NCBI RefSeq assembly: GCF_901827155.1
Contig: NZ_LR594659.1
Coordinates: 4,526,001 to 4,590,000 of the forward strand
Source: Variovorax sp. PBL-H6
GTDB lineage: Bacteria; Pseudomonadota; Gammaproteobacteria; Burkholderiales; Burkholderiaceae_C
Length of the DNA: 64,000 bases
Direction of reading: 5' to 3'
Part shown: positions 23,345 through 39,196 of the stretch, in pieces
Position numbering within the stretch: position 1 is the stretch's first letter
How the letters are laid out: each line of letters starts with the position of its first letter
The notes under the pieces: model-generated
Databases searched by the model: none
What the model was told of the DNA's origin: nothing
The model's input: only the letters and a program-made list of their open reading frames with translations
Made by a program: the position numbers and the translations under genes

Positions 23345-24252
23345 ATGCCCGCAACCTGCGCCCATCCCTGATGCGGACCCTGTCAACGCTGCCCGGCATC
23401 GATGCGCTGTGGCCCCTGTGCCTGGATATCGTTCGCCATCGCCGCGGCCTGCGGCCAAGGCCGCTACCCGATGCGACACGGCACTTCGCATGGCATCCCA
23501 CGCGCGGCTTCGTGCTTCACGAGGACGCATGGGACGAAGAAGCCATCGAGCTCTTCGCGCTGCTCAAGCCCGTGCTCGACCGGCCGCCCGAAGGTGCCGC
23601 GTGGGTGATCGGGCAGCTGGGCCAGAGTCTCGACGGCTGCATCGCGACGCGTGGGGGTGATTCCAACTTCGTCAACGGGCCCGAGGCGCTGGTACATCTG
23701 CACCGGCTGCGAGCGCTGTGCGACGCCGTGATCGTGGGCGCCGGCACCGCCACCATCGACAACCCGCAGCTCACCACGCGCCGCGTCGCGGGCGAGCACC
23801 CGGTGCGCGTACTGATCGACCCGTCGCTACGAGTGGTGCCGACGCTGCGCGCGCTGTCGGACCGGCAGGCTCCCACGCTGCTGGTCTGCGATGCCACACG
23901 TGCGGCAGAGGCGGCGCAGCGCGTGGGCGCCGAGCAGGTGCTGGGCCTGCCCGGCCTGATGAGCAACGCCGGCGGCCCGCCCAACCTGCGCGTGCTGCTG
24001 CCGGCCTTGCAGCAGCGCGGCCTGCGGGTGCTCTTCGTCGAGGGCGGGGGCATTACCGTCTCGCGCTTCATTGCGCAGGGGTGCATGGACCGGCTGCACC
24101 TCAGCGTCGCGCCGGTGCTCATCGGCAGCGGGCGGCCGGGGTTGGCGCTCCCGGGCAGCGCGGCGATGCGCGATTGCCCACGGCCTCCTGCCCGTGTGTT
24201 CCGCATGGGAGCGGATGTGCTGTGGGACCTGGATCTGCAGCCGGCGCGCTGA
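23341..24252 (+). CDS. RibD C-terminal (DHFR-like) reductase family protein
   Basis: 303 aa. An N-terminal region of about 95 residues of unknown fold is followed by a RibD_C/dihydrofolate-reductase-like NADPH domain: WVIGQLGQSLDGCIAT, then LHRLRALCDAVIVGAGTA, LLPALQQRGLRVLFVEGGG and LHLSVAPVLIGSG. It lacks the zinc deaminase domain of true RibD, so it is not a complete riboflavin enzyme. Members of this fold reduce pyrimidine, pterin or folate-like substrates. I take the GTG at 23341, which overlaps the upstream stop; an ATG at 23371 is the alternative. It may belong functionally with the PTPS-like cluster at 28.5-35 kb. Confidence 0.82.
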   Translation: MNARNLRPSLMRTLSTLPGIDALWPLCLDIVRHRRGLRPRPLPDATRHFAWHPTRGFVLHEDAWDEEAIELFALLKPVLDRPPEGAAWVIGQLGQSLDGCIATRGGDSNFVNGPEALVHLHRLRALCDAVIVGAGTATIDNPQLTTRRVAGEHPVRVLIDPSLRVVPTLRALSDRQAPTLLVCDATRAAEAAQRVGAEQVLGLPGLMSNAGGPPNLRVLLPALQQRGLRVLFVEGGGITVSRFIAQGCMDRLHLSVAPVLIGSGRPGLALPGSAAMRDCPRPPARVFRMGADVLWDLDLQPAR

Positions 24253-24267
24253 CGGCGAACGCGGCGG

Positions 24268-26262
24268 CTATTGGATCGTCAGGCTGCCCTCGTGGCTCAG
24301 AACGGTGAACATGCCGCGACCCACGTACTGCAGTTCGACGGCGTCGAACGCGGAACCGCTGATCGAACCACCGGCACCCGAAGTGGTCGAGATGGAGGAA
24401 GTGTAGATCTGACCGCCCATCACTGCCGCCGCCAGCTTGCTGCCATCGGCCGAAGAGGCCACGGCAAACCAATCTCGAGTCGACGCGCGCTCCGTCCAGC
24501 TCGCACCACTGTCGATCGAGGTGTAGATCTGACCGGGGTAGACCAGCGCCACCAGCCTGCTGCCGTCGGCCGATGAGGCCACCGACTGCCAAGATCGAGG
24601 GGACTCGCGCTCCGTCCAGCTCGCACCACCGTCGCTGGAGGTGTAGATAGGGCCCCCCTCCTCCACCGCCACCAGCCTGCTGCCGTCGGCCGACGTGGCC
24701 ACCGACGCCCACCACCGATCGTCGTTGCCTGCTGTCCAGCTCACGCCGCTGTCGATCGAGGTGTAGATCCGACCGCCGTACTCCACCGCGACCAGCTTGC
24801 TGCCATCGGCCGACAAGGCCACGGCACGCCAATTCAGACCGAAGCCGAAGCCGCTTGCCGTCCAGCTCTCGCCGCCGTCGATCGAGGTGTAGATCCCCCC
24901 GAACAGCACCACCGCCACCAGCTTGCTGCCGTCGGCCGACGAGGCCACCGACCACCACTGTCGATCGGACTCGTGCGGGGTCCAACTCGCGCCGCCATCG
25001 GTCGAGTTGTAGATCTTGCCGCGGTATGCCACTGCCACCAGCTTGCTGCCGTCAGCCGACGAGGCCACCGACCGCCATTCGCCAACGACCTCGCGTGCCG
25101 TCCAGCTCACCCCACTGTCGGTCGAGGTGTAGATCTTGCCGCCGTCCACCGCCGCCACCAGCTTGCTGCCGTCGGCCGACGAGGCCACGGCACGCCAGCG
25201 TTGATCGGACTCGCGCTCCGTCCAGGTCACGCCGGCCATGCCGCCCAGGCTCTTCGTGTACACCGACTGCCCGGCGTTCTGCGCAATCCGCCAGCCGCCC
25301 ACGCCGACACCGCTGACGCGCACCACGTCGCCGATGGCGGGATTGGCCGGCAAGGTCAGCACCACCTGCGCCGTCTCGTTGCGCGCGACGTAGCCCGTGT
25401 TGGGTTGCGCCTGCACCGCGGTGCCGGTGACGTCGACCCAGGCGAGCGTGGCGCCGGGCGCGCCATTGCAGATGTAGTTCGTGGTGCCGACTTCGCCCAC
25501 GTCGAGCACGCCGCTGTGGTTGCGGTCCAGGCCCCCCTCGACCTTCCTGCCGCCGTAGATGCAGTTCGCGCCCGCGGGCTCACTGACGATGTTCACCAGC
25601 GTGTTCAGCCCGTCCGTGCCATTGGCGCCCTCCGCTCCGCTGGTGCCATTCGTACCGTTGGTGCCATTGGTGCCGCTCGTGCCGTCAACACCGTTGGCGC
25701 CATCTCTGCCGTTCGCGCCGCGGATGCCATCGCACACATAGCCGGTGCTGCCGATCTCTGCCGCTTCGAGCAGCCCGTTGGCATTGCCGTCCACGCCCGC
25801 GTCGATCGCCTTGCCGCCGGCCGCGCAGTTCGCCCCGCTCGGTTCGTCGCGCATCTGCACCAGCGTGCTCAGGCCATTGCCGCCCGCCACTCCCGAGAGC
25901 CCGGTGGCGCCAGGGCTGCCGGAGGTGCCCGCTGCACCGTGGCACACGTACTGGGTGCTGCCGACCTCGCTGGCCGTGAGCACGCCGCTGCCGTCGCTGT
26001 CCGGACCTGCTTCGATGCGCACGCCGCCACTGGCGCAGTTCGCGCCAGTCACTTCGGCGTTCACCGACACCAATGTCTTGATGCCGGCGGTGCTGGTGCT
26101 GGTGTTCGTCCCCGCGCTGCCGCTGCCGGCGGTGCCGGTGCCTGCAACTTCCAGGGCAGCGATGGCAGCCAACCCGCTTCCATCGCTCGCGCCGCCCCCA
26201 CCGCAAGCGCTCAGCAGCAAGAAAACCATCAAGGCCGGAATGGAAAGATACGCGGTTCGCAT
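24268..26262 (-). CDS. Lipoprotein with Asp-rich repeats, collagen-like stretch and seven propeller-type repeats (copy 1)
   Basis: 664 aa. A signal peptide ends in a lipobox (LLLSACGGGG), so it is probably an outer-membrane lipoprotein. Residues about 55-290 hold three ~70-residue units with DxDxxGxLxxxEVGSTxYVCxG, an EF-hand-like acidic pattern. A Gly-X-X run (NGTNGTNGTSGAEG) lies between units. A ~65-residue linker domain follows (NTGYVARNETAQVVLTLP). The rest has seven ~42-residue repeats of the form SADGSKLVAV..GGxIYTSTDSGVSW, the YCF48/BNR propeller pattern, suggesting a seven-bladed beta-propeller. A similar gene lies immediately upstream, so this is a tandem paralogue. Ligand and role unknown. 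Confidence 0.75.
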   Translation of the reverse strand: MRTAYLSIPALMVFLLLSACGGGGASDGSGLAAIAALEVAGTGTAGSGSAGTNTSTSTAGIKTLVSVNAEVTGANCASGGVRIEAGPDSDGSGVLTASEVGSTQYVCHGAAGTSGSPGATGLSGVAGGNGLSTLVQMRDEPSGANCAAGGKAIDAGVDGNANGLLEAAEIGSTGYVCDGIRGANGRDGANGVDGTSGTNGTNGTNGTSGAEGANGTDGLNTLVNIVSEPAGANCIYGGRKVEGGLDRNHSGVLDVGEVGTTNYICNGAPGATLAWVDVTGTAVQAQPNTGYVARNETAQVVLTLPANPAIGDVVRVSGVGVGGWRIAQNAGQSVYTKSLGGMAGVTWTERESDQRWRAVASSADGSKLVAAVDGGKIYTSTDSGVSWTAREVVGEWRSVASSADGSKLVAVAYRGKIYNSTDGGASWTPHESDRQWWSVASSADGSKLVAVVLFGGIYTSIDGGESWTASGFGFGLNWRAVALSADGSKLVAVEYGGRIYTSIDSGVSWTAGNDDRWWASVATSADGSRLVAVEEGGPIYTSSDGGASWTERESPRSWQSVASSADGSRLVALVYPGQIYTSIDSGASWTERASTRDWFAVASSADGSKLAAAVMGGQIYTSSISTTSGAGGSISGSAFDAVELQYVGRGMFTVLSHEGSLTIQ

Positions 26263-26298
26263 GACTAGATCCTGAGAAAGGGGCGGCGGCAGCTCGGC

Positions 26299-28266
26299 CT
26301 ATTGAGTCGTCAGGCTGCCCTCGTGGCTCAGCACGGCAAACACACCGTTGCCGGCATATCGCAGGTCGATGGAATCGGACGAACTGCCGCTGATCGAGCC
26401 TCCCGCACCCAGGGTGGTCGAGGCTTCGGACATGAAGATCTGAAAGCCGTCCGCGATCGCCACCATCCTGCTGGCGTCGGCCGAGGCAGCCACCCAATAC
26501 CAGATGCGGTTGGATTCGCGCGCAGTCCAGCTCACGCCGCTGTCGATCGAGGTGTAGATCTGGCCGCCGACCGCTACCGCCACCAGCTTGCTGCCATCTC
26601 CAGAGGAGGCCACGGATGACCATTGCTGGTCGGACTCACCACGGGCCGTCCAGCTCACGCCGCTGTCGGTAGAGGTGTAGATCCGGCCCAAGGATGCCAC
26701 CGCCACCAGCTTGCTGCCGTCCGCCGACGAAGCCACCGAGGTCCAGGCCTGGGCGGACTCGCGCGCCGTCCAGCTGATACCGCTGTCGGTGGAGGTGTAG
26801 AGCTGGCTACTTGCTGCCGCGACCAGCTTGCTGCCGTCGGCGGACGAGGCCACGGAAGTCCAGCTTCGACTGGGCCCGCGTGCCGTCCAGCTGACGCCGC
26901 TGTCGGTGGAGGTGTAGAGCTGGCCATTCTGCTCCGGCGCCGCGACCAGCTTGCTGCCGTCGGCGGACGAGGCTACAGAAGACCATCGCCGACCGGAATC
27001 CCGCGCCGTCCAGCTGACGCCACTGTCGGTCGAGGTGTAGATCTGACCGAGTCTGCCGTCCGCCGCCACCAGCTTTGTGCCGTCGGCCGAGGAGGCGATG
27101 GACTGCCAAGCTCGATCGGACTCGTGCGCCGTCCAGCTCGCGCCGCTGTCGGTCGATGTATAGATCTGGCCGTCGAACACCGACGCCGCCAGCTTGCTGC
27201 CGTCAGCCGAGAAGACGACACGACGCCGGTCAAAAGGGGCATCGCCAAACGGATTGCTGGTCGTCCAGGGCAGGTTGGATTCGCGCATGGTCCAGTTGGC
27301 CCCCGCCATACCGCCCAGGTTCTTCGTGTCTACCGACTGCCCGGGGTTCTGCGCGACCTTCCAGCCGCCCATGCCGGCACCGCGGACGCGCACCACGTCG
27401 CCGATGACCGGATTGGCGGGCAATGTCACCACCACCTGCGCCGTGGCGTTGCGGGCGATGTAGCACGTATTGGGTTGCGCCTGCACCGCCGCACCGGTGA
27501 CGTCGACTTGGGGGCCTCCGGCGCAGTTGCAGATGTAGCTCGTGGCGCTGATTTCATCCGCATCCAGCATGCCGTTCGCGTTGCTGTCCAACCCTGCAAT
27601 GACCTTGCTGCCCCCAGCGCAATTCGCCGCCGCGGCGTCGCTGACAACGCTCGCCAGCATGTTCAATCCGCTGGCGGCAATGGTGCCGTCCGTGCCGTTG
27701 CACACGTAGCCCGTGCTGCTGATCTCGGCGTCGTCGAGCATGCGGTTGCCGTCGCCGTCGATGCCCACGTGAATCGCCTTGCCGGCGTCCGCGCAATGTG
27801 CGCCGCGGGGTTCGTCGCGCATTTGCACCAGCGTGCCGGACGGGCCAGCAGCACCCTGGCACATGTACTGGGCGCTCCCGACCTCGCTAGCCGAAAGCTG
27901 GCCGTTGCCATCGCTGTCCAGCCCCGCGTCGATACGCACACCGCCACTGGCGCAATGGAGGCCGGACTCCTCGACGTTCACGGCCAGCAGCGTATTGATC
28001 TTGATGGTGCTTGTTCCGCTGGTGTCCGTGGTGGTTCCGGTGCCGGTGCTTGCTCCGGTGTCGGTGTTGGCTCCGAGGGCGTCGGTGCTGGTTCCGTCGG
28101 TGCCTGGATCGACGGTGCTCGCCCCGGTGCTTGTGCTCGTGGCTGTGCCCACGGCTGCGAGCGCGGCCAGCGCAGCCAGTTCGCTGCCATTGCTGCCACC
28201 GCCGCCGCAGGCGCTCAGCAGCAAGGACAGTATCAGGGACCCGGTGAGGGCATAAGAAGTTCGCAT
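26299..28266 (-). CDS. Lipoprotein with Asp-rich repeats and seven propeller-type repeats (copy 2, paralogue)
   Basis: 655 aa, same architecture as its downstream neighbour. It has a signal peptide with lipobox (LLLSACGGGG), a Thr/Gly/Ala-rich linker (about 30-95), three acidic repeat units (GLDSDGNGQLSASEVGSAQYMC and similar), a linker domain, and seven SADGSKLVA..QIYTSTDSGVSW repeats. It ends in the same tail (SHEGSLT.Q) as copy 1. The start at 28266 has CAGGA 7-11 bp upstream, and the leader bases of the two genes are nearly identical. This shows a duplication that included the translation start. I reject the longer in-frame extension because it lacks the signal peptide. Confidence 0.75.
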   Translation of the reverse strand: MRTSYALTGSLILSLLLSACGGGGSNGSELAALAALAAVGTATSTSTGASTVDPGTDGTSTDALGANTDTGASTGTGTTTDTSGTSTIKINTLLAVNVEESGLHCASGGVRIDAGLDSDGNGQLSASEVGSAQYMCQGAAGPSGTLVQMRDEPRGAHCADAGKAIHVGIDGDGNRMLDDAEISSTGYVCNGTDGTIAASGLNMLASVVSDAAAANCAGGSKVIAGLDSNANGMLDADEISATSYICNCAGGPQVDVTGAAVQAQPNTCYIARNATAQVVVTLPANPVIGDVVRVRGAGMGGWKVAQNPGQSVDTKNLGGMAGANWTMRESNLPWTTSNPFGDAPFDRRRVVFSADGSKLAASVFDGQIYTSTDSGASWTAHESDRAWQSIASSADGTKLVAADGRLGQIYTSTDSGVSWTARDSGRRWSSVASSADGSKLVAAPEQNGQLYTSTDSGVSWTARGPSRSWTSVASSADGSKLVAAASSQLYTSTDSGISWTARESAQAWTSVASSADGSKLVAVASLGRIYTSTDSGVSWTARGESDQQWSSVASSGDGSKLVAVAVGGQIYTSIDSGVSWTARESNRIWYWVAASADASRMVAIADGFQIFMSEASTTLGAGGSISGSSSDSIDLRYAGNGVFAVLSHEGSLTTQ

Positions 28267-28506
28267 GACTCGATCCTGAGAAATAAAGAGGGCGCGCGGC
28301 ACCTCGGCCACCGCGCCCACCCCTTCCAGGCCTTCGCGTGCGCAGGCCAGTCGAAGCAACGACGATTCTTGTGACTACGGATCGCTTTGCCTCTATTTCG
28401 ACAGAAAAAGCGAGAGTTCAGGCAGGCAGGGTCAGGCCATTGGCAGCGCATTTCGCACCTGGCCCGGCCTCGCGATGGAGACGTTGCTTTGGCGCTTGGT
28501 GGGCGT

Positions 28507-29376
28507 CTACGCCGGCAGCATCAGAAGGTCTGTATGACCGACGCGCAGGCAGCTGCGTGGCGCTAGCGCCCGCCGTTTCACCTGCCACGCCTGAACGAGC
28601 GCGTGCGCGCTCGGAGCCTGTTCCAGCGCAGCGCTGCCCACGCCGTCGATCATGGCCTGCAGCATGCGCATCTCCTCGATGCGCCAATCGCTGTCCGACA
28701 AGGTGACGCGGCAACCCTCGGCAGCCAGGCGAGCTGCCGCTGCCGCCGGAGCTTTGCCGCCGAGCGCAGCACCAAAGCCCTTGTCACGCCGCTGGTGCGC
28801 CGCAAACAGCCGGTCGACGGCTTCATCCTCTTCGACGACAGGGTCCCAGCTCACGCGCCCATCGACACTGAGCGCGAAGAACGCCGCCGCGTTCGCCTTG
28901 CACACCCGATCGAAAAGCGCATCGAGCCAGGATGCGGAAACAAGGTCCAGCAACGCCGCCGCGGTGACGAGCTGCGCACCCGCAAAGGGCACTGCGTCCA
29001 GCGCGCTCGCGAGATCGGCGCGCTGCCATCGCACCTCTGCATTCCAATCCAACCCTTCGACGTGAAGGCGTTGGTCATCGGTGCGCAAGATCAGGTCCTG
29101 CGCGTGCGCCCACGCCGCAAAGGCACCCGGCAGCGCAGCCAGGAGCCGCGGATCATGGTCGACCAGCAGCCAGCGTTGCGCACCGCCCAAGCTTGGCGCC
29201 AGCGCGCGCAGATTGGCGCCGGTGCCGCAAGCCAGGTCCAGGACATCGAGCGGACGCGCATCGTGGCGCATCCGCCCCGCCATGCCGCGCAAGTCCAGCG
29301 TCGCAGCGGATTCGGCACGCGCCGCAAGATCGAAAGGCTCGCGCAGCGCGAGCCAGTCGGCACTGAAGCCTGTCAT
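28507..29376 (-). CDS. Class I SAM-dependent methyltransferase
   Basis: 289 aa. Motif I of the Rossmann-like methyltransferase fold is LDVLDLACGTGANLRAL (about residues 38-54). Strand 2 ends LVDHDPRLL, and a later acidic segment RWQRADLASAL would contact the adenine. No targeting signal. The ATG overlaps the glycosyltransferase stop (ATGA), so it is the last gene of a coupled operon with the dehydrogenase, PTPS-like and GT4 genes. The methyl acceptor is unknown; from context it may be the glycosylated or pterin-like product of that operon. The 240 bp downstream (28267-28506) carry no gene and probably the promoter of the lipoprotein gene. Confidence 0.85.
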   Translation of the reverse strand: MTGFSADWLALREPFDLAARAESAATLDLRGMAGRMRHDARPLDVLDLACGTGANLRALAPSLGGAQRWLLVDHDPRLLAALPGAFAAWAHAQDLILRTDDQRLHVEGLDWNAEVRWQRADLASALDAVPFAGAQLVTAAALLDLVSASWLDALFDRVCKANAAAFFALSVDGRVSWDPVVEEDEAVDRLFAAHQRRDKGFGAALGGKAPAAAAARLAAEGCRVTLSDSDWRIEEMRMLQAMIDGVGSAALEQAPSAHALVQAWQVKRRALAPRSCLRVGHTDLLMLPA

Positions 29377-30449
29377 GGCCTGGCCACCGCCTGCCGCCGA
29401 AAGCCCGCGAGCACAGATGCGAAGCGCGCGCTGCTTTGCGCCCAGCCAGGCAGGCGGCCGCCAGCGGCCCGCGCTGCGGCACCAAGCTGCGCACGCCACG
29501 GCGCATCGTCCATCAGGCGCTGCAGCGCGTCGCGCAGCTCGCCGACATCGCCAGGCGTCACCAGCATGCCCGCCGCATCCGGCACGGTGTCGGGGATGGC
29601 CCCCGCACGCGTGCTGATCACCGGCAGCCCATGCGCCAGCGCCTCGGCCAGCGCCATGCCGTAACCCTCGTGGAACGAAGGCAGCACGAAAGCGTCGGCC
29701 TGGGCGTAGAGCGCGCGCAGGCCCGGCTCGTCCAGCTCGCCATGCAGCAGCACGCACTCGCGCAGGCCGTGGGCGTCGATGGCCTGCACGAGCGCGGAGC
29801 TGCAGGCGGCGTCCATCACCAGGCTGCCAGCGCAGTGCAGGACCCAGTGCCGATCCTTCAATCCGGCCAGCGCCTCGACCAGCAGCACGTGGCCCTTGCG
29901 CGGCGTCACGGTCGCCACGCACAGCAGCGACAGGACATCGCCGCCCGAGCCCGACGCCGGCGGCGCCGGCTCGGTCCCCGGCTCAACCACCACGATGCGC
30001 GACGGCACGACATCGAAGTCCGCCAGCGCGCGCGCCGTGGACGGGCTGGTCACGATGACCCCGCGCGCATGGGCGAGTGCACGCCGCTCGCTGTCGAACA
30101 GCGCTCGCTGCCGATCGGCATCCAGCCCCGTTTCGAGCGCCAGCGGATGGTGCACCAGCGCGACCCAGTCCAGCCGCTGCGCATGCTCACGCACGAGCTC
30201 CGGCAGGACACCGAAGGCCAGGCCATCGACCACGGCGAGCGCGCCGTCCGGCAGCGCCTCGACGACTTGTGCGGCGCGCGCCAGTGCGGCGGCATCCGGC
30301 GCCGGATAGCCGTCGCCCAGCGACAGCACCTCGACTGCCCAGTCCCGCGCACGCAATCCCTCGATGATGTGCCGGTCGTAGGCGTAGCCGCCGGTGCGGG
30401 TGCCGAGGTCCCCCGGCACCAGGAAGCTGCAGCGGCCTTCCCCCGTCAA
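29373..30449 (-). CDS. Family 4 glycosyltransferase (GT-B fold)
   Basis: 358 aa. The N-terminal strand [26 protein letters not shown] carries the acceptor-side glycine loop. The C-terminal domain has [13 protein letters not shown] and the family E-x7-E motif in [23 protein letters not shown], which binds the nucleotide sugar. It uses a UDP- or GDP-sugar as donor with retention of configuration. The start is a TTG at 30449 overlapping the PTPS-like stop (TTGA); it is placed there because the first strand begins within 10 residues. The acceptor is unknown. Some bacterial pterin glycosyltransferases belong to GT4, which fits the neighbouring PTPS-like gene, but this is inference. Confidence 0.87.
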
Positions 30450-30844
30450 AGCACCGCCTCGTACGCCGCCCAGGCCACGTGCGATTCGTTGAGCCGCACG
30501 CGCAGGCCCGCCAGTCCGCTCGCATGGGGCCCGAGCTCGCCGGCGGCGATGCGGGCGGCCACGCGCTCGAAGATCACGCGGGCCATGAACTCGGTCGTGG
30601 TGTTGCGGCCCTCGAAGGCCGGGTCGTCATCGAGGTTGCGCAGGTTGAGCTCGGCCAGCACGCTGCGCAGGACCTCGGTGGCGCGCGCGATGTCGACCAC
30701 CATGCCGTCGACGTCGAGCTCGGCGCGGCGCATCTCCAGGTCGACCACATAGGTCGCGCCATGCAGGCGCTGTGCAGGCCCGAAGGCCGCGCCGCGGAAA
30801 CTGTGGGCAATCATGAAATGGTCGCGGACATTGACGCTGTACAT
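30446..30844 (-). CDS. PTPS/QueD-fold protein with altered active site
   Basis: 132 aa, full length for the 6-pyruvoyl-tetrahydropterin synthase / 6-carboxy-tetrahydropterin synthase family. The fold landmarks are present: HFMIAHSF near the start, [40 protein letters not shown] and a C-terminal VRLNES that keeps the pterin-anchoring Glu. The usual C-x-x-LHGH motif reads AQRLHGAT, so the catalytic Cys and one of the three zinc His are lost. The usual LDH reads LNL, so the Asp-His pair is also lost. It therefore probably does not perform the standard PTPS or QueD reaction. It lies between a dehydrogenase gene and a GT4 gene, overlapping the latter. Confidence 0.82.
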
Positions 30845-30874
30845 GGTTTCCTTGCAATGGAGTGAGCGAAGAAC

Positions 30875-31873
30875 TCAGGGGTAATCGATTCGATGGCACA
30901 AGGTCTGCGGCGCGCCGGCAGCCAGCCGCTCCAGCACCGCGGGCAGCTCGTCGAAGGGCGCGGTATCGGTCAGCAGCGCATCGAGGGCCGGATCGCGCAG
31001 CAGCGCCAGCGCCAGCGCCAGACGGCGGCCATGGCTCCAGCGCGCCCGCTGCGGCAACGCGACCTGCCCGACCTGCGAACTCCTGAGCGTGAGCCGCCGC
31101 GAATGAAAAGCTTCGCCCAACGGCAGCGTGACCGCCTGCCGCCCGTACCAGCTCATCTCGAGCACCGTGGCCTCGAAGGCGGCAAGCCGAAGCGCGGTGG
31201 CCAGCCCTTCGGCGTTGCCGCTGGCATGGATGACCAGGTCCGCATCGGGACGCGCGCACTGCGGGCTCGCGAAGACGAGGCCCAGCCGCTCGGCCACGGC
31301 GCGGCGCTGGGGATTCGTGTCGATGACCTCGACCTCGCAACCCGGCATGCGTCCGGCCAGCCAGGCCGCGAGCAGCCCCACCACGCCCGCGCCCACGACT
31401 GCGATGCGATCGCCGACGCGCGGCGCCGCGTCCCATAGCGCGTTGACGGCCGTCTCCATGTTGGCCGCGAGCACGGCGCGCGCAGGCGGCAAGCCTTCAG
31501 GCAGCGGATGCACCGCCTCGGCGGGCACGACGTAGCGGGTCTGGTGCGGATAAAGGCAGAACACCGCGCGCCCCAGCAGCGGCGGCGGCCCCTGCTCGAC
31601 CACGCCTACGCTGGCATATCCGTACTTGAGCGGTGCAGGAAAACTGCCTTCCTGGAAAGGCGCGCGCATGCGCTCGTACTCGCTTTCGGGCACCTCGCCG
31701 CGAAGCACCAGCAGCTCGGTTCCGCGACTGATGCCGCTGTGCAGCGCGCGCACCAGTACATCGCCAGGTCCGGGCGCAGCCAGCGCAGCCTGCCGCAGGC
31801 CGGCGCGGCCCGGCGCCTCGACCCAGCAGGCCCGGGACTCGCCAGGGGCGACGCGAGAGTGATTTGCTGGCAT
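30875..31873 (-). CDS. MDR-superfamily dehydrogenase lacking the catalytic zinc site
   Basis: 332 aa. It has a GroES-like N-terminal part and a Rossmann domain with [16 protein letters not shown] for NAD(P). In zinc alcohol dehydrogenases the catalytic zinc is held by Cys and GHE; here the corresponding segments read [11 protein letters not shown] and LKYGYASVG, so both ligands are missing. The four-Cys structural zinc lobe is also absent. Related zinc-free MDR proteins act as reductases or dehydrogenases on cofactors and tetrapyrroles. The ATG at 31873 is preferred to one 22 codons upstream. It heads the operon MDR-PTPS-GT4-methyltransferase, divergent from a CDP-alcohol phosphatidyltransferase operon 58 bp away. 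Confidence 0.83.
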
Positions 31874-31931
31874 GCTCCTTCGCTCGGCCGCTTGCGGCGG
31901 CGATTCGTGTTCGGCAACCGATCTTAAGACC

Positions 31932-32705
31932 ATGCTCACGCGATCCCCTCATGCGCCTGCGTCCGGGGCGGCGCGCCTGGCCGCGCTGCGCCGCGATGCC
32001 TGGCGCGAAGCCCTGCCCTGCTTCCTGCTGCTGGCCGCGCTGGCTGCCTTGCTGGGCCGCCTGGGCGAGCTCGGTCCCTGGTTCCAGCTTAAATCGCTCG
32101 CCGTGTTCGCGGTGGCCTTCGCGCTGGTGCTCGCAGGGCTCGCTGCGCACGCGCCGAACATGCGGTTCGGCGCCGCCAACCGCGTGACACTGGCGCGCCT
32201 GGCGCTGATCGCGGTCCTGGCAGCGCTGATCGGCGAGCCCGCCCACGACGCCATGGCCTGGGGCAGCATCGCAGTCGCCGCCAGCGCCGCGCTGCTCGAT
32301 GCGCTCGACGGACCCCTTGCGCGCCGGGGCTGCCTGTCCAGCAACTTCGGCGCCCGCTTCGACATGGAAACCGATGCGCTACTGGTCCTGGTGCTGTCGA
32401 TGCTGGTCGTGCATTTCGGCAAGGCGGGCCCGTGGATCCTGACGGCTGGCCTGATGCGCCATGTCTTCGTCCTGGCCGCACGGCCCTGGCCCTGGCTGGC
32501 GCGCACGCTGCCCTCCAGCAGGCGCCGCAAGACGGTGTGCGTGGTGCAGATCACCAGCCTCATCGCGTGCCTCGGCCCGATCATCGCGCTGCCCTGGAGC
32601 CGCGCGCTCGCGGCCGCGAGCCTCACCCTGCTGGCGGCGTCCTTCGCGATCGACATCGCCTGGCTGCTGCGCCACCGAGACATTCCACCGGAGACTGCGA
32701 CATGA
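31932..32705 (+). CDS. CDP-alcohol phosphatidyltransferase family membrane protein
   Basis: 257 aa with about six transmembrane helices. The full family signature D-G-x2-A-R-x8-G-x3-D-x3-D is present: [23 protein letters not shown] split by the expected spacings, near residues 118-140. Such enzymes transfer a phosphatidyl (or similar) group from a CDP-activated lipid to an alcohol headgroup using two metal ions. The substrate is unknown. It heads an operon with yceI and a sulfatase-like gene (ATGA overlap) and is divergent from the PTPS-like operon, so its product may be the lipid carrier of that pathway. Confidence 0.85.
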
Positions 32706-33292
32706 AAGCTCCCGCTGTCCGCACGCTGTGCGCGGCCTTCCTGCTGACGTTCGCCGCGGCATCCGCCCGCGCAGAGCCCGCGCGCTACGAGCTCGACCCC
32801 GAGCACCTCACCGTGGCTTTCCTGGTCGAGCACATCGGCTACGCCAAGGTGCTGGGCCTGTTCCGCGCTGCGCGCGGCAGCTACAGCTTCGACGAAGCCA
32901 CCGCCGCGCTCAGCCAGGTGCGCATCGAGATCGACACGCAAAGCGTGTTCAGCAACTACGCCAGCCGCGACCGGCATCTGAAGAGCGCCGACTTCCTCAA
33001 CAGCGCCGAGTTTCCGCGCATGGTCTTCACCGCCGTGGATGCCAAGCGCACCGGCGAGCGCACCTTCGACATCGCGGGCCAGCTCGAACTGCTGGGCCGC
33101 ACCCAGCCGCTCACGCTCAGCGCAACCTGGAACAAGAGCGGCGCCTCGCCCATCGACAAGGCCTACATCATGGGTGTCTCGGCGCGCGGCAGCTTCAAGC
33201 GCAGCGCGTATGGCATGCGGTACGGTGTCGACAACGGGTGGGTTGGCGACGAGGTGGCGTTGATTATCGAGTTCGAGGCCAGGCGCAAGTGA
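32702..33292 (+). CDS. YceI-family periplasmic lipid-binding protein
   Basis: 196 aa. A signal peptide is cleaved near SARAEP. The mature lipocalin-like barrel begins RYELDPEHLTVAFLVEHIGYAKVLGLF and includes ASRDRHLKSADFLNSAEFP and the LELLGRTQPLTL turn, all family hallmarks. YceI proteins bind isoprenoid or other amphiphilic molecules in a central cavity. The start overlaps the CDP-alcohol phosphatidyltransferase stop (ATGA) and the stop overlaps the next gene (GTGA), so it is firmly part of this operon and may carry its lipid product across the periplasm. Confidence 0.9.
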   Translation: MKAPAVRTLCAAFLLTFAAASARAEPARYELDPEHLTVAFLVEHIGYAKVLGLFRAARGSYSFDEATAALSQVRIEIDTQSVFSNYASRDRHLKSADFLNSAEFPRMVFTAVDAKRTGERTFDIAGQLELLGRTQPLTLSATWNKSGASPIDKAYIMGVSARGSFKRSAYGMRYGVDNGWVGDEVALIIEFEARRK

Positions 33293-34950
33293 CCGCCGCG
33301 CGCGGCCCCCTGACGCCGTGCGTGGGTGGGTGCGGCTGGACGGCGCGCTTCGCCTTGCCGCTGCTGCTGCTCAACGCACTTCTCACGCTGGAGAACCACG
33401 GCCCCGGCCTGTGGCCGCGCCCCGCGCTGCGGCTGTCCTTCGAGCTGGTGGTGGCGCTGCTGCTGCTTGCGGCGTGGATCGCCTCGCGCGGCCGGCCCGG
33501 CATTGGCGTGCTGCGGATGCTGGCGGCCGCGAGCAGTTTCTGGGTCGTCGCGCGCTACCTCGACGTCACGGTGTCTGCCGTGTTCGGCCGCCAGCTCAAC
33601 CTCTATTGGGATAGTCGCCACGCGCTGGAGGTACTTCGCATGGGCGAGTTCTCGGCCTGGCAGATCGGCATGGGCGCACTGGCGGTGATGGCCGTGCCGC
33701 TGCTGCTGTACGCGCTGGCACTACGCTGCTGGCGCGCGGTTGCGCAGGCGCTCGCCTGGACACCACCGCGGCCGGCGATCGGACTGGCCGGCCTGCTGCT
33801 CGGCGCCTGCTTCGCGGCGCACGGCATCGGCGGGCGCGACACGCGCTGGTTCTTCTCCATGCCGGTCGCGCCGATCCTCGCCCACCAGGCCGGGGTCCTG
33901 GCGGGCCAGTTGCTGCCCGGACAGGCCAGCGCGCGCCTCGCGCCCAGCCCCGACTTCGCGCAAGGCGGCCTCGCCGGCCTGCATGGTGCGGACGTGCTGC
34001 TGCTCTTCGCCGAGTCGTATGGCGTCACCACGCTCGACGATCCGCGGCAAGCCGCCGCCCTCGCGCCGCAACGCGCGGCCTTCGCGCAGGCGCTTGCCGC
34101 CGGCGGGCTGCAGGTGGTGTCGGCGCGCGTGCGCTCGCCCACCTACGGCGGCGCATCGTGGCTGGCCCATGCCGAACTGCTGAGCGGCGTCGACATGCAG
34201 GACCCCGGCGCCTACGAGCTGCTGCTGGCCACGCAGCGGTCGACCCTGGTGCGCCACTTCCAGGCCAGCGGCTGGCGCACCGTGAACTGGATGCCCGGCC
34301 TGCAGCGGCCTTGGCCCGAAGGCCGCTTCTACGGCTTCGATCGCTATGGCGATGCCGAGCGCATCGGCTACCGCGGGCCGGCCTTCGGCTATTGGCGCAT
34401 TCCCGACCAGGTCTCGATGGCGCTGCTGCATGCGCAGGAATTGACCAGCCCGCCCAGCCAGCGCGCCCCGCGCTTCATGGTCTTTGCGACGCTCGCGAGC
34501 CACGCACCCTTCCGGCCGCTGGCGCCCTATGTGACGGACTGGCACAAGCTCACGGGCCATGAGGCCTATACGTCGGCCGAAGTGGCGCGATCACTGGCCT
34601 TGCCGGTCTCGTGGCAAACGCCAGTGCCGGCCTATCTCGAATCCCTGGCCTACACCTTCCGATGGCTGGGCGACTATCTCGAACACCGTGCCCCGCGGCA
34701 GCTGCTGACCATCGTGATCGGCGACCACCAGCCGCTCGCCAGCGTGAGCGGCACCGGCGCCTCCTGGGACGTGCCGGTCCACATCATCAGCGGCGACGCC
34801 GCCCTGCTCAGACGCTTCGAGGCCCACGGCTTCAAGCCGGGCCTGTTGCCGGAACCGGAGCCCGCGGCCATGCGCATGCATGCGCTCACGCCGCTGCTGC
34901 TCGAAGTCTTCGATGGCAGCCGGACCGGCTTGCCGGGCGCGGCTGAATGA
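33289..34950 (+). CDS. Membrane-bound sulfatase-like / lipid phosphotransferase-type hydrolase
   Basis: 553 aa. Four or five N-terminal transmembrane helices (residues about 10-180) are followed by a periplasmic alkaline-phosphatase-superfamily domain. Metal-binding Glu is in DVLLLFAESYG, the nucleophile region is likely TYGGASWLAHAELLSG, and IVIGDHQP is the C-terminal metal motif. This is the architecture of LtaS- and EptA-type enzymes that move phospho-headgroups between lipids and glycans. The GTG at 33289 overlaps the yceI stop; no better start is available. Together with the CDP-alcohol phosphatidyltransferase it suggests modification of an envelope lipid or glycan. Confidence 0.8.
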   Translation: MTAARGPLTPCVGGCGWTARFALPLLLLNALLTLENHGPGLWPRPALRLSFELVVALLLLAAWIASRGRPGIGVLRMLAAASSFWVVARYLDVTVSAVFGRQLNLYWDSRHALEVLRMGEFSAWQIGMGALAVMAVPLLLYALALRCWRAVAQALAWTPPRPAIGLAGLLLGACFAAHGIGGRDTRWFFSMPVAPILAHQAGVLAGQLLPGQASARLAPSPDFAQGGLAGLHGADVLLLFAESYGVTTLDDPRQAAALAPQRAAFAQALAAGGLQVVSARVRSPTYGGASWLAHAELLSGVDMQDPGAYELLLATQRSTLVRHFQASGWRTVNWMPGLQRPWPEGRFYGFDRYGDAERIGYRGPAFGYWRIPDQVSMALLHAQELTSPPSQRAPRFMVFATLASHAPFRPLAPYVTDWHKLTGHEAYTSAEVARSLALPVSWQTPVPAYLESLAYTFRWLGDYLEHRAPRQLLTIVIGDHQPLASVSGTGASWDVPVHIISGDAALLRRFEAHGFKPGLLPEPEPAAMRMHALTPLLLEVFDGSRTGLPGAAE

Positions 34951-35023: not shown

Positions 35024-35242
35024 ATGCGCATCCTTCTCCTTCTTGTCAGCATCGCGATCCCTGTCACGGCCTGGTGGCTGGGTTCCTTCACCGGTCTCCT
35101 GATCGCCATCGGCACCTGCTTCGTGCTGGCCGCCGCGAGCTTCGCCTATTCAATGGCAAGCAAAGAGGCCCGCGAGTCGAAGCAGCTGCAGCGCGCCTTC
35201 GGCCGCAGCACCACCTTCCTCGCCGGCCTGCGCAAGCACTGA
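35024..35242 (+). CDS. Small inner-membrane protein, hypothetical
   Basis: 72 aa with two adjacent hydrophobic segments (ILLLLVSIAIPVTAWWLG and LLIAIGTCFVLAAASFAYSM) and a basic C-terminal tail (KEARESKQLQRAFGRST). The ATG at 35024 starts directly at the first helix. It lies 73 bp after the sulfatase-like gene and might be co-transcribed. No family or function recognised. Confidence 0.6.
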   Translation: MRILLLLVSIAIPVTAWWLGSFTGLLIAIGTCFVLAAASFAYSMASKEARESKQLQRAFGRSTTFLAGLRKH

Positions 35243-36354: not shown

Positions 36355-37362
36355 TCAGCCCGCCGCCGCCTTGGCCACCGCAACGTCGGTCTCGCGCGGC
36401 AGCGTCACGTTGTTCTTCACCGCCAGGATCTCCGCCATCACGCTGACGGCGATCTCCGGCGGCGTCTTGCTGCCGATGTAGATGCCGATCGGGCCGCGCA
36501 GGCGCGCGAGCGAGGCATCGGTCTGCTCGAAGTGCTCGATCATCCGCTCGCGCCGCGCCTGCGCGTTGCGGCGGGAGCCGATCGCGCCGACATAGAAGGC
36601 GTCGCTCTGCAGCGCCTCCAGCAGGGCGAGGTCGTCGAGCTTGGGGTCGTGCGTGAGCGCGACCACGCAGCTGCGGCGGTCGGGCTTGAAGGCGAGCACG
36701 GCATCGTCGGGCATCTCGGTGCTGATCGTCACGCCCGGCGTGGACCAGGCTGTGCGGTACTCGGCGCGCGGGTCGCACAGCGTGACCGCGAAGCCGCTGA
36801 ACTTGGCCATGGTCGACAGGTATTCGGCGAGCTGGCCGGCGCCGATCAGCAGCATGCGGTACTCGGGCCCGAAGGTGTTGACCAGCTCCTTGTCGTTGAC
36901 AGTGAGCTCGGCGGGCGCACTCGCCTCGGCAACCCGCACAACGCCGTCGGCCAGCGAGACCGAACGCTGCATCAGCCTTCCCTGCTCCAGTTGCTCCACC
37001 AGCGCAGCCAGCGAGGCGGCATCGAGGTCGTACTCGAGCAGCAGCTCCAGCGTGCCGCCGCAGGGCAGACCGAAGCGGTGCGCCTCGTCGGCGGTGATGC
37101 CGTACTTGACCAGATTCGGCGGGCCCGAGGGCATTTCGCCCGGGGCGCCATGGGCGCGGCTGTAGCGCGCGATCAGGTCGTCCTCGATGCAGCCGCCCGA
37201 GACCGAGCCGACCACCGCACCGTCCTCGGCCAGCGCCATGATCGAGCCGATCGGCCGCGGCGAGGAGCCCCAGGTGCGCACCACCGTCGTGAGCAGCGCG
37301 CGGCGGCCCGCGAGCCGCCAGTCGCGCAGCGTGCGCAGGACCATCACGTCGAGGTTTTCCAT
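36355..37362 (-). CDS. xdhC: XdhC/CoxI family molybdenum-cofactor maturation protein
   Basis: 335 aa. The N-terminal XdhC/CoxI domain has VRTWGSSPRPIGSIMAL and GSVSGGCIEDDL. The C-terminal Rossmann-type domain has LLIGAGQLAEYLSTMA and DAFYVGAIGSRRNAQARRERM. The family binds the molybdenum cofactor and helps its sulfuration and insertion into xanthine dehydrogenase or CO-dehydrogenase-type hydroxylases. It is the last gene of the cox operon here, starting 17 bp after coxG. The ATG at 37362 is selected because the XdhC domain starts right there. Confidence 0.92.
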   Translation of the reverse strand: MENLDVMVLRTLRDWRLAGRRALLTTVVRTWGSSPRPIGSIMALAEDGAVVGSVSGGCIEDDLIARYSRAHGAPGEMPSGPPNLVKYGITADEAHRFGLPCGGTLELLLEYDLDAASLAALVEQLEQGRLMQRSVSLADGVVRVAEASAPAELTVNDKELVNTFGPEYRMLLIGAGQLAEYLSTMAKFSGFAVTLCDPRAEYRTAWSTPGVTISTEMPDDAVLAFKPDRRSCVVALTHDPKLDDLALLEALQSDAFYVGAIGSRRNAQARRERMIEHFEQTDASLARLRGPIGIYIGSKTPPEIAVSVMAEILAVKNNVTLPRETDVAVAKAAAG

Positions 37363-37379
37363 GCTCGTCTTCCGTCTCG

Positions 37380-37982
37380 CTATTCGGCCGGCTTCTCGCC
37401 GGCGTCCGCGTCGGGCGTGTCGTCCTTCTTGCCGAAACCCATCTTGCGCATCAGGCCTGCCATCTTGCCGGTCTTCTCGGAGGACTCTCCAGCCTGCGCC
37501 TCGGTACTCTCGACAGCGGGAGGCGGACCGTAGCGCGCCTGCATCTCGGCCTCGAAGCGCTTGAAGAAGTCGTCGGCCGTCGACTTGGCCGCGCCGTCGA
37601 TCAGGCGCTGGCCCAGCTGCGCGATCTTGCCGCCGACCTGCGCCTGCACCGTGTAGTCGAGCTCGCACGCCGAATCGGTGCCGTCCACCGGCTTGAGCGT
37701 CACGCCCGACGAGCCCTTGGCGAAGCCGGCCACGCCGCCCTGCCCTTCGAAGGAGAGCTTGTAGCTGTCGGGAGGCGTGATGTCGGCGAGCCTGACCTTG
37801 CCATTGAACTTGGCCGAGACCGGGCCGATCTTCACGGCCAGCGCCACCGTGTATTCGTTGTCGCCGACGGGCTCGAACTTGTCGCAGCCGGGGATGCACT
37901 TCTTGAGCGTCTCCGGATCGTTGAGCGCCTCCCAGGCCTGCTGCTGCGTGATCGGGAGGCGGCGGTTGCCGAGCATTTCCAT
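37380..37982 (-). CDS. coxG: CoxG-family SRPBCC protein
   Basis: 200 aa. MEMLGNRRLPITQQQAWEALNDPETLKKCIPGC is the typical CoxG start, followed by a START/SRPBCC fold with DGTDSACELDYTVQAQVGGKIAQLGQRLI. The C-terminal ~45 residues are a charged tail. CoxG is thought to recruit the Mo hydroxylase to the membrane or quinone pool. The ATG at 37982 is chosen over one eight codons upstream because of the conserved N-terminus. It lies 20 bp downstream of coxE. Confidence 0.9.
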   Translation of the reverse strand: MEMLGNRRLPITQQQAWEALNDPETLKKCIPGCDKFEPVGDNEYTVALAVKIGPVSAKFNGKVRLADITPPDSYKLSFEGQGGVAGFAKGSSGVTLKPVDGTDSACELDYTVQAQVGGKIAQLGQRLIDGAAKSTADDFFKRFEAEMQARYGPPPAVESTEAQAGESSEKTGKMAGLMRKMGFGKKDDTPDADAGEKPAE

Positions 37983-38002
37983 GATGGTTCCTTTGTTCTT
38001 CG

Positions 38003-39196
38003 TCAACGGCCGCAGCGCATCAGTGCCGCAAGGCTGGAGGCCAGTTGTTCCAGTGCGTTGAGATTGTGGACCGCGAGCATCGCGTCCGCATGGCGGTGCA
38101 GCACCGCAGCCCCGCGCGCCAGCGGGGCATAGCCTTCATAGCGCAGCAAAGGGTTGAGCCACAGCACGCGCCGCGAATGGCGCTTGAGCCACAGCAGCTC
38201 GCGCTCCAGCACCTCGGGCTCGCCGGTGTCGAGGCCGTCGCTGATCACCAGCACGAGCGTGCGGCGGCCCGTCAATCGGCGCGCGTGGTGCCGGTGCAGC
38301 TCGGCCAGCGACGAGCCCAGGCGCGTACCGCCTGCGAAATCGGCGATCGCCTCGCCGGCCGCGCGCAGCATCACGTCGGTATCGGCGATGCGGAAGGCCG
38401 GGGTCAGGTCCGTCAGCTGCGTGCCGAAGGCGAACACGTCGCGCCGCCCGGCGCGGCGCGTCGCCGCATGCAGGAAGGCCAGCAACAGGCGCGCATAACG
38501 CTCCATCGACCCGGAGACATCGATCAGCACCAAGAGGGGCAGCGGCTGCGTACGCCGCGCAAGCCGCGGCAGGCGCAGCATCTCGCCGCCCGTGCGGCCC
38601 GCTTCGTGCCAGACGCCCGGCCAGTTCATGCGCGAATGGGCACCCGCGTTGCCGGCCGCGTGCAAGCGACGGGCGGCGATGGTGGGCACCGGCAGCGCAA
38701 CGTCGCGCGCCAGCCGCTCGACCAGGCGGTACTCGGCGGCGCCCAGCGCGTTGAAGTCGGCATGGTGCATGCGCTGGCGGTCGCTGGCGGTCATGGCGGC
38801 ATCGAAGTCGACCTCGCGCTCGGTCTGGGCAGCCTGCACGGTCTCGCGCGGCGCGGCAAGCGCCTCGCGCACGCGCGGCCGGCGCTTCGAGGGCTCGGCC
38901 TTTCCTTCGGCGCTCGGCAGCATCTGCGCGAGCAGCTTGGCGGCGAGCTCGGGGTCGCGGAACCATGCATCGAAGAGCTCGCGGAAAACCCCGCGGTCCT
39001 GTTCACGGCTGATCATCACGGCCTCCATCGCGGCGGCGAGATCGGGCCGGCTTTGCACGCCCACGAGCATCGCCGCTTCGGCCGCGAGGGCGATGCGGGC
39101 CGAATCGGTTCGCACGCCGGCGCGCCGCAGTGCACGGCCGAAGCCGGCCATGTTGTCGGCGAGCTTGCCGCGGCGAGCGTCACCGAGTTGCTGCAT
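38003..39196 (-). CDS. coxE: CoxE-family von Willebrand factor A domain protein
   Basis: 397 aa. The VWA domain is in the C-terminal half, with the MIDAS motif LIDVSGSMERYARLLLAF, and later VISDGLDTGEPEVLERELLWL. In Oligotropha, CoxE works with the AAA+ protein CoxD to assemble the Cu/Mo active site. Its ATG directly abuts the coxD stop (TGA-ATG), so translation is coupled. Length is normal for the family. Confidence 0.92.
   Translation of the reverse strand: MQQLGDARRGKLADNMAGFGRALRRAGVRTDSARIALAAEAAMLVGVQSRPDLAAAMEAVMISREQDRGVFRELFDAWFRDPELAAKLLAQMLPSAEGKAEPSKRRPRVREALAAPRETVQAAQTEREVDFDAAMTASDRQRMHHADFNALGAAEYRLVERLARDVALPVPTIAARRLHAAGNAGAHSRMNWPGVWHEAGRTGGEMLRLPRLARRTQPLPLLVLIDVSGSMERYARLLLAFLHAATRRAGRRDVFAFGTQLTDLTPAFRIADTDVMLRAAGEAIADFAGGTRLGSSLAELHRHHARRLTGRRTLVLVISDGLDTGEPEVLERELLWLKRHSRRVLWLNPLLRYEGYAPLARGAAVLHRHADAMLAVHNLNALEQLASSLAALMRCGR

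Follow-up and report, generated by a model that had tools for sequence, protein, structure and literature searches.

In archaea and fungi, the first steps of riboflavin synthesis rely on a cyclohydrolase, a deformylase of the creatininase family and a RibD_C reductase, and cyanobacteria and Chlorobium glycosylate biopterin-type pterins that are made via GTP cyclohydrolase I. Among the T-fold proteins related to 6-pyruvoyl-tetrahydropterin synthase (PTPS, COG0720), the FGPAQ signature is typical of the PTPS-IV subfamily, whose gene neighbourhood was reported to include PF00925 and PF01872 (PMC5445326, section on PTPS-IV). Here, we describe a locus of Variovorax sp. PBL-H6, in a stretch of 64,000 nucleotides (contig NZ_LR594659.1, positions 4,526,001 to 4,590,000; hereafter the window, from the first letter of which coordinates are counted), where a PTPS-IV-type gene lies in an operon with genes for a dehydrogenase of the medium-chain dehydrogenase/reductase (MDR) fold, a family 4 glycosyltransferase (GT4) and a methyltransferase. 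This MDR-PTPS-GT4-methyltransferase operon is a real conserved unit, of which a RibD_C reductase is the fifth gene and a near-constant partner. We regard it as specifying a real, conserved and uncharacterised pathway, partly foreshadowed by the PTPS-IV literature and by one orphan crystal structure. An initial annotation, made from the sequence alone, had presented the genes as a candidate undescribed pathway. No description of the gene set was recognised in the literature searched, but the view has to be tempered for the PTPS, which fits the published PTPS-IV subfamily and has a solved relative (3d7j).

Some of the clusters described here employ the same enzyme families as archaeal and fungal riboflavin synthesis but, unlike it, add genes for PTPS, MDR, GT4, a methyltransferase and a CDP-alcohol phosphatidyltransferase. 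The likeness to pathways with pteridine glycosyltransferases, as in cyanobacteria and Chlorobium (PMC5683033), would lie in a sugar-bearing pterin, whereas PTPS-IV is found here, together with GTP cyclohydrolase II in some clusters. PTPS-IV as portrayed in PMC5445326 has the FGPAQ signature in common with our clusters, as well as the PF01872 neighbour with most of them and the PF00925 neighbour with some, although the section concerned names only these neighbours, and not MDR, GT4, methyltransferase or CDP-alcohol genes. That section takes PF00925 for GTP cyclohydrolase I/FolE2, whereas the name of this family in Pfam is GTP_cyclohydro2; the published reading of the PTPS-IV neighbourhood is thus corrected to cyclohydrolase II, not I. 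The nearest solved structure is that of SCO6650 from Streptomyces coelicolor (PDB 3d7j, E 2.5e-48), an ‘uncharacterised protein’ in the PDB, which is 61% identical to the window PTPS over the matched region, shares its FGPAQ and RLHGAT motifs and has a relative in S. fungicidicus that sits within a cluster. Reportedly, SCO6650 has neither zinc nor the catalytic triad, and it is said to be inactive in the PTPS reaction.

A conserved operon on chromosomes and plasmids

Direct reading of the sequence confirmed the layout initially proposed, i.e. seven genes in two divergent sets separated by a 58-bp gap. All seven open reading frames (ORFs) are free of internal stops, four 4-bp overlaps (TTGA, ATGA, ATGA and GTGA) join neighbouring genes, and MDR and PTPS are spaced by 30 bp. 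A scan for MDR in 84,980 species genomes returned 428 relatives. The 80 best loci, 64 of them with full flanks, were kept and searched for partners by tblastn; being the most MDR-similar, these loci are biased towards conservation. PTPS was found in all 80, GT4 in 79 and the methyltransferase in 76. PTPS invariably follows MDR on the same strand (with a gap of <200 bp in 73 loci), and GT4 comes next after PTPS (79/79) and the methyltransferase next after GT4 (76/76) wherever both are held, so that the conserved synteny sought for the four leftward genes is indeed present, in the same order. According to the record titles, these loci belong to beta-, gamma- and alphaproteobacteria, Acidobacteria and Gemmatimonadota. 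In an even draw of 397 Pseudomonadota genomes (completeness of at least 90 requested, best five candidates per genome scored), MDR was detected at E <= 1e-40 in 32, that of PBL-H6 included. Thirty of these loci were retrieved, and PTPS adjoins MDR in all of them, GT4 comes next in 28 and a CDP-alcohol gene is present in 16 (1.5 kb upstream covered). Recurrence in such distant genomes places the arrangement far outside what chance would give, and the co-occurrence whose absence elsewhere would have refuted the initial annotation was thus observed. Between the families, pairwise distances are correlated as well, with rho of 0.59 to 0.92 and a permutation maximum of 0.47 (without species control).

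Membership of the unit stood for the four leftward genes, and the initial annotation had overlooked the RibD_C reductase gene, which lies outside the seven-gene segment. PF01872 is the sole Pfam match of its product, and a deaminase domain was found neither there nor in the copy from another cluster locus, L061; identity as a bifunctional RibD, which calls for a deaminase in addition to RibD_C, was rejected for both. The window protein shares 43-44% identity with the reductases in the L061 and L065 clusters. A RibD_C match occurs in 71 of the 80 loci, convergent with and at most 1.5 kb from the methyltransferase gene in 53 of these 71, and it sits between MDR and PTPS in three (L020-L022). In the even draw, a dedicated RibD_C homologue (at least 126 bits) is held by 29 of the 32 MDR genomes, again counting PBL-H6, at a distance from MDR of at most 4 kb in 27 and at most 7 kb in 28 (6.6 kb in PBL-H6 itself), hence its standing as a near-constant partner. 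Some clusters have extra genes for GTP cyclohydrolase II (15/80 loci), a creatininase (12/80) and a flippase-like protein (16/80), families that were called by Pfam on the L061 copies. A Tyr occupies the motif position in all 16 cluster cyclohydrolase stretches, for which a Cys pair served as search filter. The genome of PBL-H6 (6.87 Mb in three contigs) has, at C1:3323088 and not far from a RibD homologue, a copy of GTP cyclohydrolase II. A compact variant, L121, was also noticed, in which cyclohydrolase II, MDR, PTPS, methyltransferase and RibD_C lie on a single strand and no GT4 match interrupts them; this form may mark a minimal pathway.

Related clusters exist in Acidobacteria, Gemmatimonadota, Actinomycetota and haloarchaea. 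In a plasmid collection, PTPS was found in 29 records and MDR in 31, the two lying within 1.2 kb of each other, by coordinates, in 24, which include records of Streptomyces, Microbacterium, Rhizobiales and haloarchaea. Eight plasmid regions were examined (Thiodictyon, S. fungicidicus, S. anthocyanicus, Haloarcula sinaiiensis, Methylosinus trichosporium, Microbacterium, Peteryoungia and Natronorubrum), and among their annotated genes no lumazine or riboflavin synthase and no bacteriochlorophyll gene was found. The S. fungicidicus cluster comprises CDP-alcohol, MDR, PTPS, GT4 and methyltransferase genes, a flippase-like stretch, a creatininase and GTP cyclohydrolase II. Haloarcula and Natronorubrum retain the order MDR, PTPS, GT4 and then another gene, which is annotated as a methyltransferase in Natronorubrum and is methyltransferase-like, below the cut-off, in Haloarcula; in Natronorubrum, one additional gene lies between MDR and PTPS. 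These haloarchaeal loci represent a diverged version, since their PTPS (L090, 9940-10317; L094, 10872-11267) shows no more than 30-36% identity, carries HSHHY in place of RLHGAT and lacks FGPAQ; with its HSHHY motif it is possibly still metal-binding. On the S. anthocyanicus plasmid, a PTPS-IV-like gene (L089, 10001-10426; FGSAQ) was seen beside MEKHLA and cupin genes, with no MDR or GT4 near it.

Protein families and conserved residues

The FGPAQ signature is present in the window PTPS and in 79 of 81 aligned copies, and the protein fits the published PTPS-IV subfamily rather than being an unknown oddity. The HGH motif occurs in none of the 81 copies. Identity as PTPS-I (QueD; CxxxHGH, with TIGR03367 at 49.1 bits against a cut-off of 89.25), PTPS-II (tetrahydrobiopterin; CxxxxxHGH) or PTPS-III (folate; ExxHGH) was therefore rejected. 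Position 24 is Ala in 81/81 copies and position 30 in 80/81, and H14, H28, D72, T84, E85, E120 and S121 are invariant. The catalytic Cys and one zinc ligand, the third His, are lost, and the presumed pterin-binding Glu is retained. Since HGH is gone, Ala occupies positions 24 and 30, and H14, H28, E85, E120 and S121 are kept, the Cys-dependent chemistry of PTPS/QueD seems lost, and the site for a 2-amino-4-oxo ligand looks retained.

The proposal that MDR is zinc-free fits the residues conserved in its 81 copies, among which an MDR zinc-ligand pattern was not seen; its relatives carry the annotation zinc-binding alcohol dehydrogenase. The predicted model has a confident MDR fold (predicted local distance difference test 91.2), and its structural neighbours, in tied rows, include polyol dehydrogenases. 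BchC is the best NCBIfam match, and what the protein has in common with BchC and other MDR dehydrogenases is the fold; identity as BchC was rejected, TIGR01202 scoring 63.8 bits against 291.25 (query without the first 18 residues). For GT4, the nearest solved relative is the D-inositol 3-phosphate glycosyltransferase 7qsg (E 5.4e-18).

In the rightward set, the CDP-alcohol phosphatidyltransferase has an intact DxxDGxxAR(x)8GxxxDxxxD motif, the residues of which are found in 53 or 54 of 54 copies, and six hydrophobic segments, by which it would be a multi-pass membrane protein. Its gene is present in 53 of the 80 loci, divergent from and adjoining MDR in 47 of them, and is also near MDR in the Streptomyces, Microbacterium and haloarchaeal regions. 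YceI (25/80) and the sulfatase-like gene (31/80), both searched by tblastn, are lineage-specific partners. The idea that all seven genes form one unit thus held for the leftward four and, where it is present, for the CDP-alcohol gene, and not for these last two. In the sulfatase-like protein, a candidate metal site (D235, E242, S243, S290, D479 and H480) is invariant in 16 aligned copies, and no PDB match was obtained at E <= 0.1.

A proposed pathway and its alternatives

From the gene content, gene order, residue conservation and fold families observed, we infer every reaction and the product of a conserved orphan GTP-derived pathway that would yield a glycosylated, methylated compound of pterin or pyrimidine type, perhaps membrane-linked, a reading to which we give an even chance. 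The glycosylated, methylated pterin-like or lipid-linked product of the initial annotation is still the best guess, with the qualification that a GTP-derived pyrimidine is also indicated, as the cyclohydrolase II, creatininase and flippase-like additions suggest that a pyrimidine or a pterin is made from GTP. Likewise, a RibD_C protein devoid of deaminase and the cyclohydrolase II of some clusters point to a ribityl- or ribosyl-aminopyrimidine that retains its 2-amino group. GTP cyclohydrolase II (here probably the copy at C1:3323088, elsewhere an in-cluster one) would convert GTP to 2,5-diamino-6-ribosylamino-pyrimidinone phosphate, of which the RibD_C-only reductase would reduce the ribosyl to a ribityl chain, the 2-amino group staying in place because the deaminase domain is absent. 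MDR and PTPS-IV would act next on this 2-amino-4-oxo compound, most likely by oxidising a side-chain hydroxyl and by closing a pterin-type ring or tailoring it. A sugar would be added by GT4, and a methyl group by the methyltransferase. Finally, the CDP-alcohol phosphatidyltransferase would probably couple a phospho-alcohol or lipid to the product, the membrane handling of which may fall to the flippase-like protein in some lineages and to YceI and the sulfatase-like protein in others.

A more specific version is improbable, in which redox steps would bypass GTP cyclohydrolase I and build a membrane-anchored, glycosylated and methylated pterin phospholipid. GTP cyclohydrolase I forms a ketone intermediate by an Amadori rearrangement. 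In the bypass, a ketone of the same type would arise by reduction of the cyclohydrolase II product by RibD_C and re-oxidation of C2' by MDR, the zinc-free PTPS-IV would close it to a dihydropterin, and GT4, the methyltransferase and the CDP-alcohol transferase would finish the molecule. If true, the product would be a membrane cofactor or signal of a new class, its genes being carried by plasmids and chromosomes of bacteria and haloarchaea.

Several observations weigh against the proposed GTP-derived pathway. Its distribution is patchy, given that MDR is found in 32 of the 397 Pseudomonadota genomes drawn, and two other genomes of the same genus in the draw are without it. Among plasmids, 7 of the 31 MDR records have no PTPS match nearby and 5 of the 29 PTPS records no MDR (Streptomyces sp. 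NBC_00028, NBC_00019, where they are 39 kb apart, two S. anthocyanicus and Sinorhizobium chiapasense). A dedicated RibD_C is absent in three genomes of the draw (G146, G381 and G391) and 62 kb off in a fourth (G076), GTP cyclohydrolase II is limited to 15/80 loci, and no cyclohydrolase, creatininase or flippase gene was found near the cluster in PBL-H6. GT4 is missing beside PTPS in L115 and L121, and a CDP-alcohol match is missing in 27/80 loci (16/80 being shorter than 16.8 kb), so that decoration and membrane linkage are perhaps not universal. The distance correlations may partly reflect common species history. Lastly, PTPS is without the known catalytic residues, for which reason its role may be binding only.

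In an improbable alternative, PTPS-IV would lack catalytic activity and serve as a subunit for binding or as a scaffold, and the product would be a modified ribityl-pyrimidine, not a pterin. The catalytic Cys and the third zinc His are gone, and 3d7j is said to be inactive, but the invariance of H14, H28, D72, E85, E120 and S121 in 81/81 copies was judged to exceed the needs of binding, and zinc-free T-fold enzymes such as dihydroneopterin aldolase exist. Weightier, though still rather unlikely, is a GTP-derived pathway with a soluble exported product (a pigment, a siderophore-like compound or a signalling pterin glycoside), in which the CDP-alcohol, YceI and sulfatase genes would serve a separate lipid function and have only the promoter region in common with the operon. 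The loci that have the MDR-PTPS core without an adjoining GT4 or without a CDP-alcohol match, and the patchiness of YceI and the sulfatase-like gene, favour it. Against it stand the CDP-alcohol gene itself, divergent and adjoining in 47/53 loci and near MDR in Streptomyces, Microbacterium and haloarchaea, and the flippase-like genes in 16/80.

That the PTPS-like gene is merely this genome's QueD, acting in queuosine synthesis among unrelated neighbours, is very improbable. Its product is the sole PF01242 protein found in a genome that holds QueC, and many such proteins are entered in databases as 6-carboxytetrahydropterin synthase, but it falls far below the QueD model's cut-off, lacks CxxxHGH and has constant neighbours that are not queuosine genes. 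A strong QueC is found in 60 of 61 genomes (PBL-H6 and relatives; 25.6 bits only in G017), and all eight genomes without a PF01242 match, six of them at least 90% complete, have QueC, which is thus retained without a PTPS gene. Moreover, two PF01242 matches each were counted in 8 of the 37 genomes of the genus. Equally remote is a role of the set in making F420 or its chromophore Fo. A role of PTPS-IV in F420 is stated as unpublished in PMC5041015, and the chemistry of GTP cyclohydrolase II and RibD_C leads towards ribitylaminopyrimidines. Nevertheless, F420_cofH (TIGR03551) is above the cut-off in none of the 32 MDR-bearing Pseudomonadota genomes, against 3 of 14 controls; it is below the cut-off in 13/32, the best being a split gene in G232 with pieces of 208 and 106 bits, and reaches 20.4 bits against 374.1 in PBL-H6. 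This sample consisted of Pseudomonadota, the Actinomycetota and haloarchaeal carriers being outside it, and F420 is known in Streptomyces and haloarchaea.

The near-fixed gene order in unrelated bacteria, its diverged form in haloarchaea and its presence on plasmids suggest a product that is probably useful. With the GTP-derived pathway outlined here, PTPS-IV, often annotated as a queuosine enzyme, gains a specific proposal, which could reveal a new cofactor, pigment or membrane lipid based on a pterin or a ribityl-pyrimidine.

Coordinates and surroundings of the window locus

Table 1. Genes of the locus and their Pfam support (MDR was queried without its first 18 residues and the methyltransferase without its first 2)
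Feature	Coordinates	Strand	Pfam match	Remarks
RibD_C-only reductase	23371-24252	+	PF01872, 125.9 bits (cut-off 24.1)	outside 28507-34950
Methyltransferase, class I, S-adenosylmethionine-dependent	28507-29376	-	PF13649 (Methyltransf_25), 29.9 bits (cut-off 27)	
GT4 glycosyltransferase	29373-30449	-	PF00534 (Glycos_transf_1), 97.2 bits (cut-off 26.4); PF13692, 100 bits	TTG start
PTPS-IV-type T-fold protein	30446-30844	-	PF01242, 92.5 bits	
MDR-fold dehydrogenase	30875-31873	-	ADH_zinc_N, 27.5 bits (below cut-off of 31.8)	first gene of the operon
Divergent intergenic region	31874-31931			58 bp; both promoters presumed here
CDP-alcohol phosphatidyltransferase	31932-32705	+	PF01066 (CDP-OH_P_transf), 61.6 bits (cut-off 22)	
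YceI-like protein	32702-33292	+	PF04264, 123.9 bits (cut-off 23.7)	
Membrane sulfatase/phosphotransferase-like protein	33289-34950	+	PF00884, 20.4 bits (below cut-off of 25)	GTG start

The RibD_C gene is separated from its operon by two adjoining lipoprotein-like genes (24268-28359, minus strand), both with DUF7151 and Sortilin-Vps10 matches and one also with a collagen match, which may be a tandem duplication. Past the sulfatase-like gene lies an ORF of 72 amino acids (35024-35242, plus strand), for which a Pfam search gave no matches, and which is matched in several of the Variovorax loci with the cluster. The cluster is adjoined (36385-38006, minus strand) by XdhC/CoxI and CoxG, which are accessory genes of molybdenum hydroxylases, and families resembling them were found again in 15 and 14 clustered loci, respectively.

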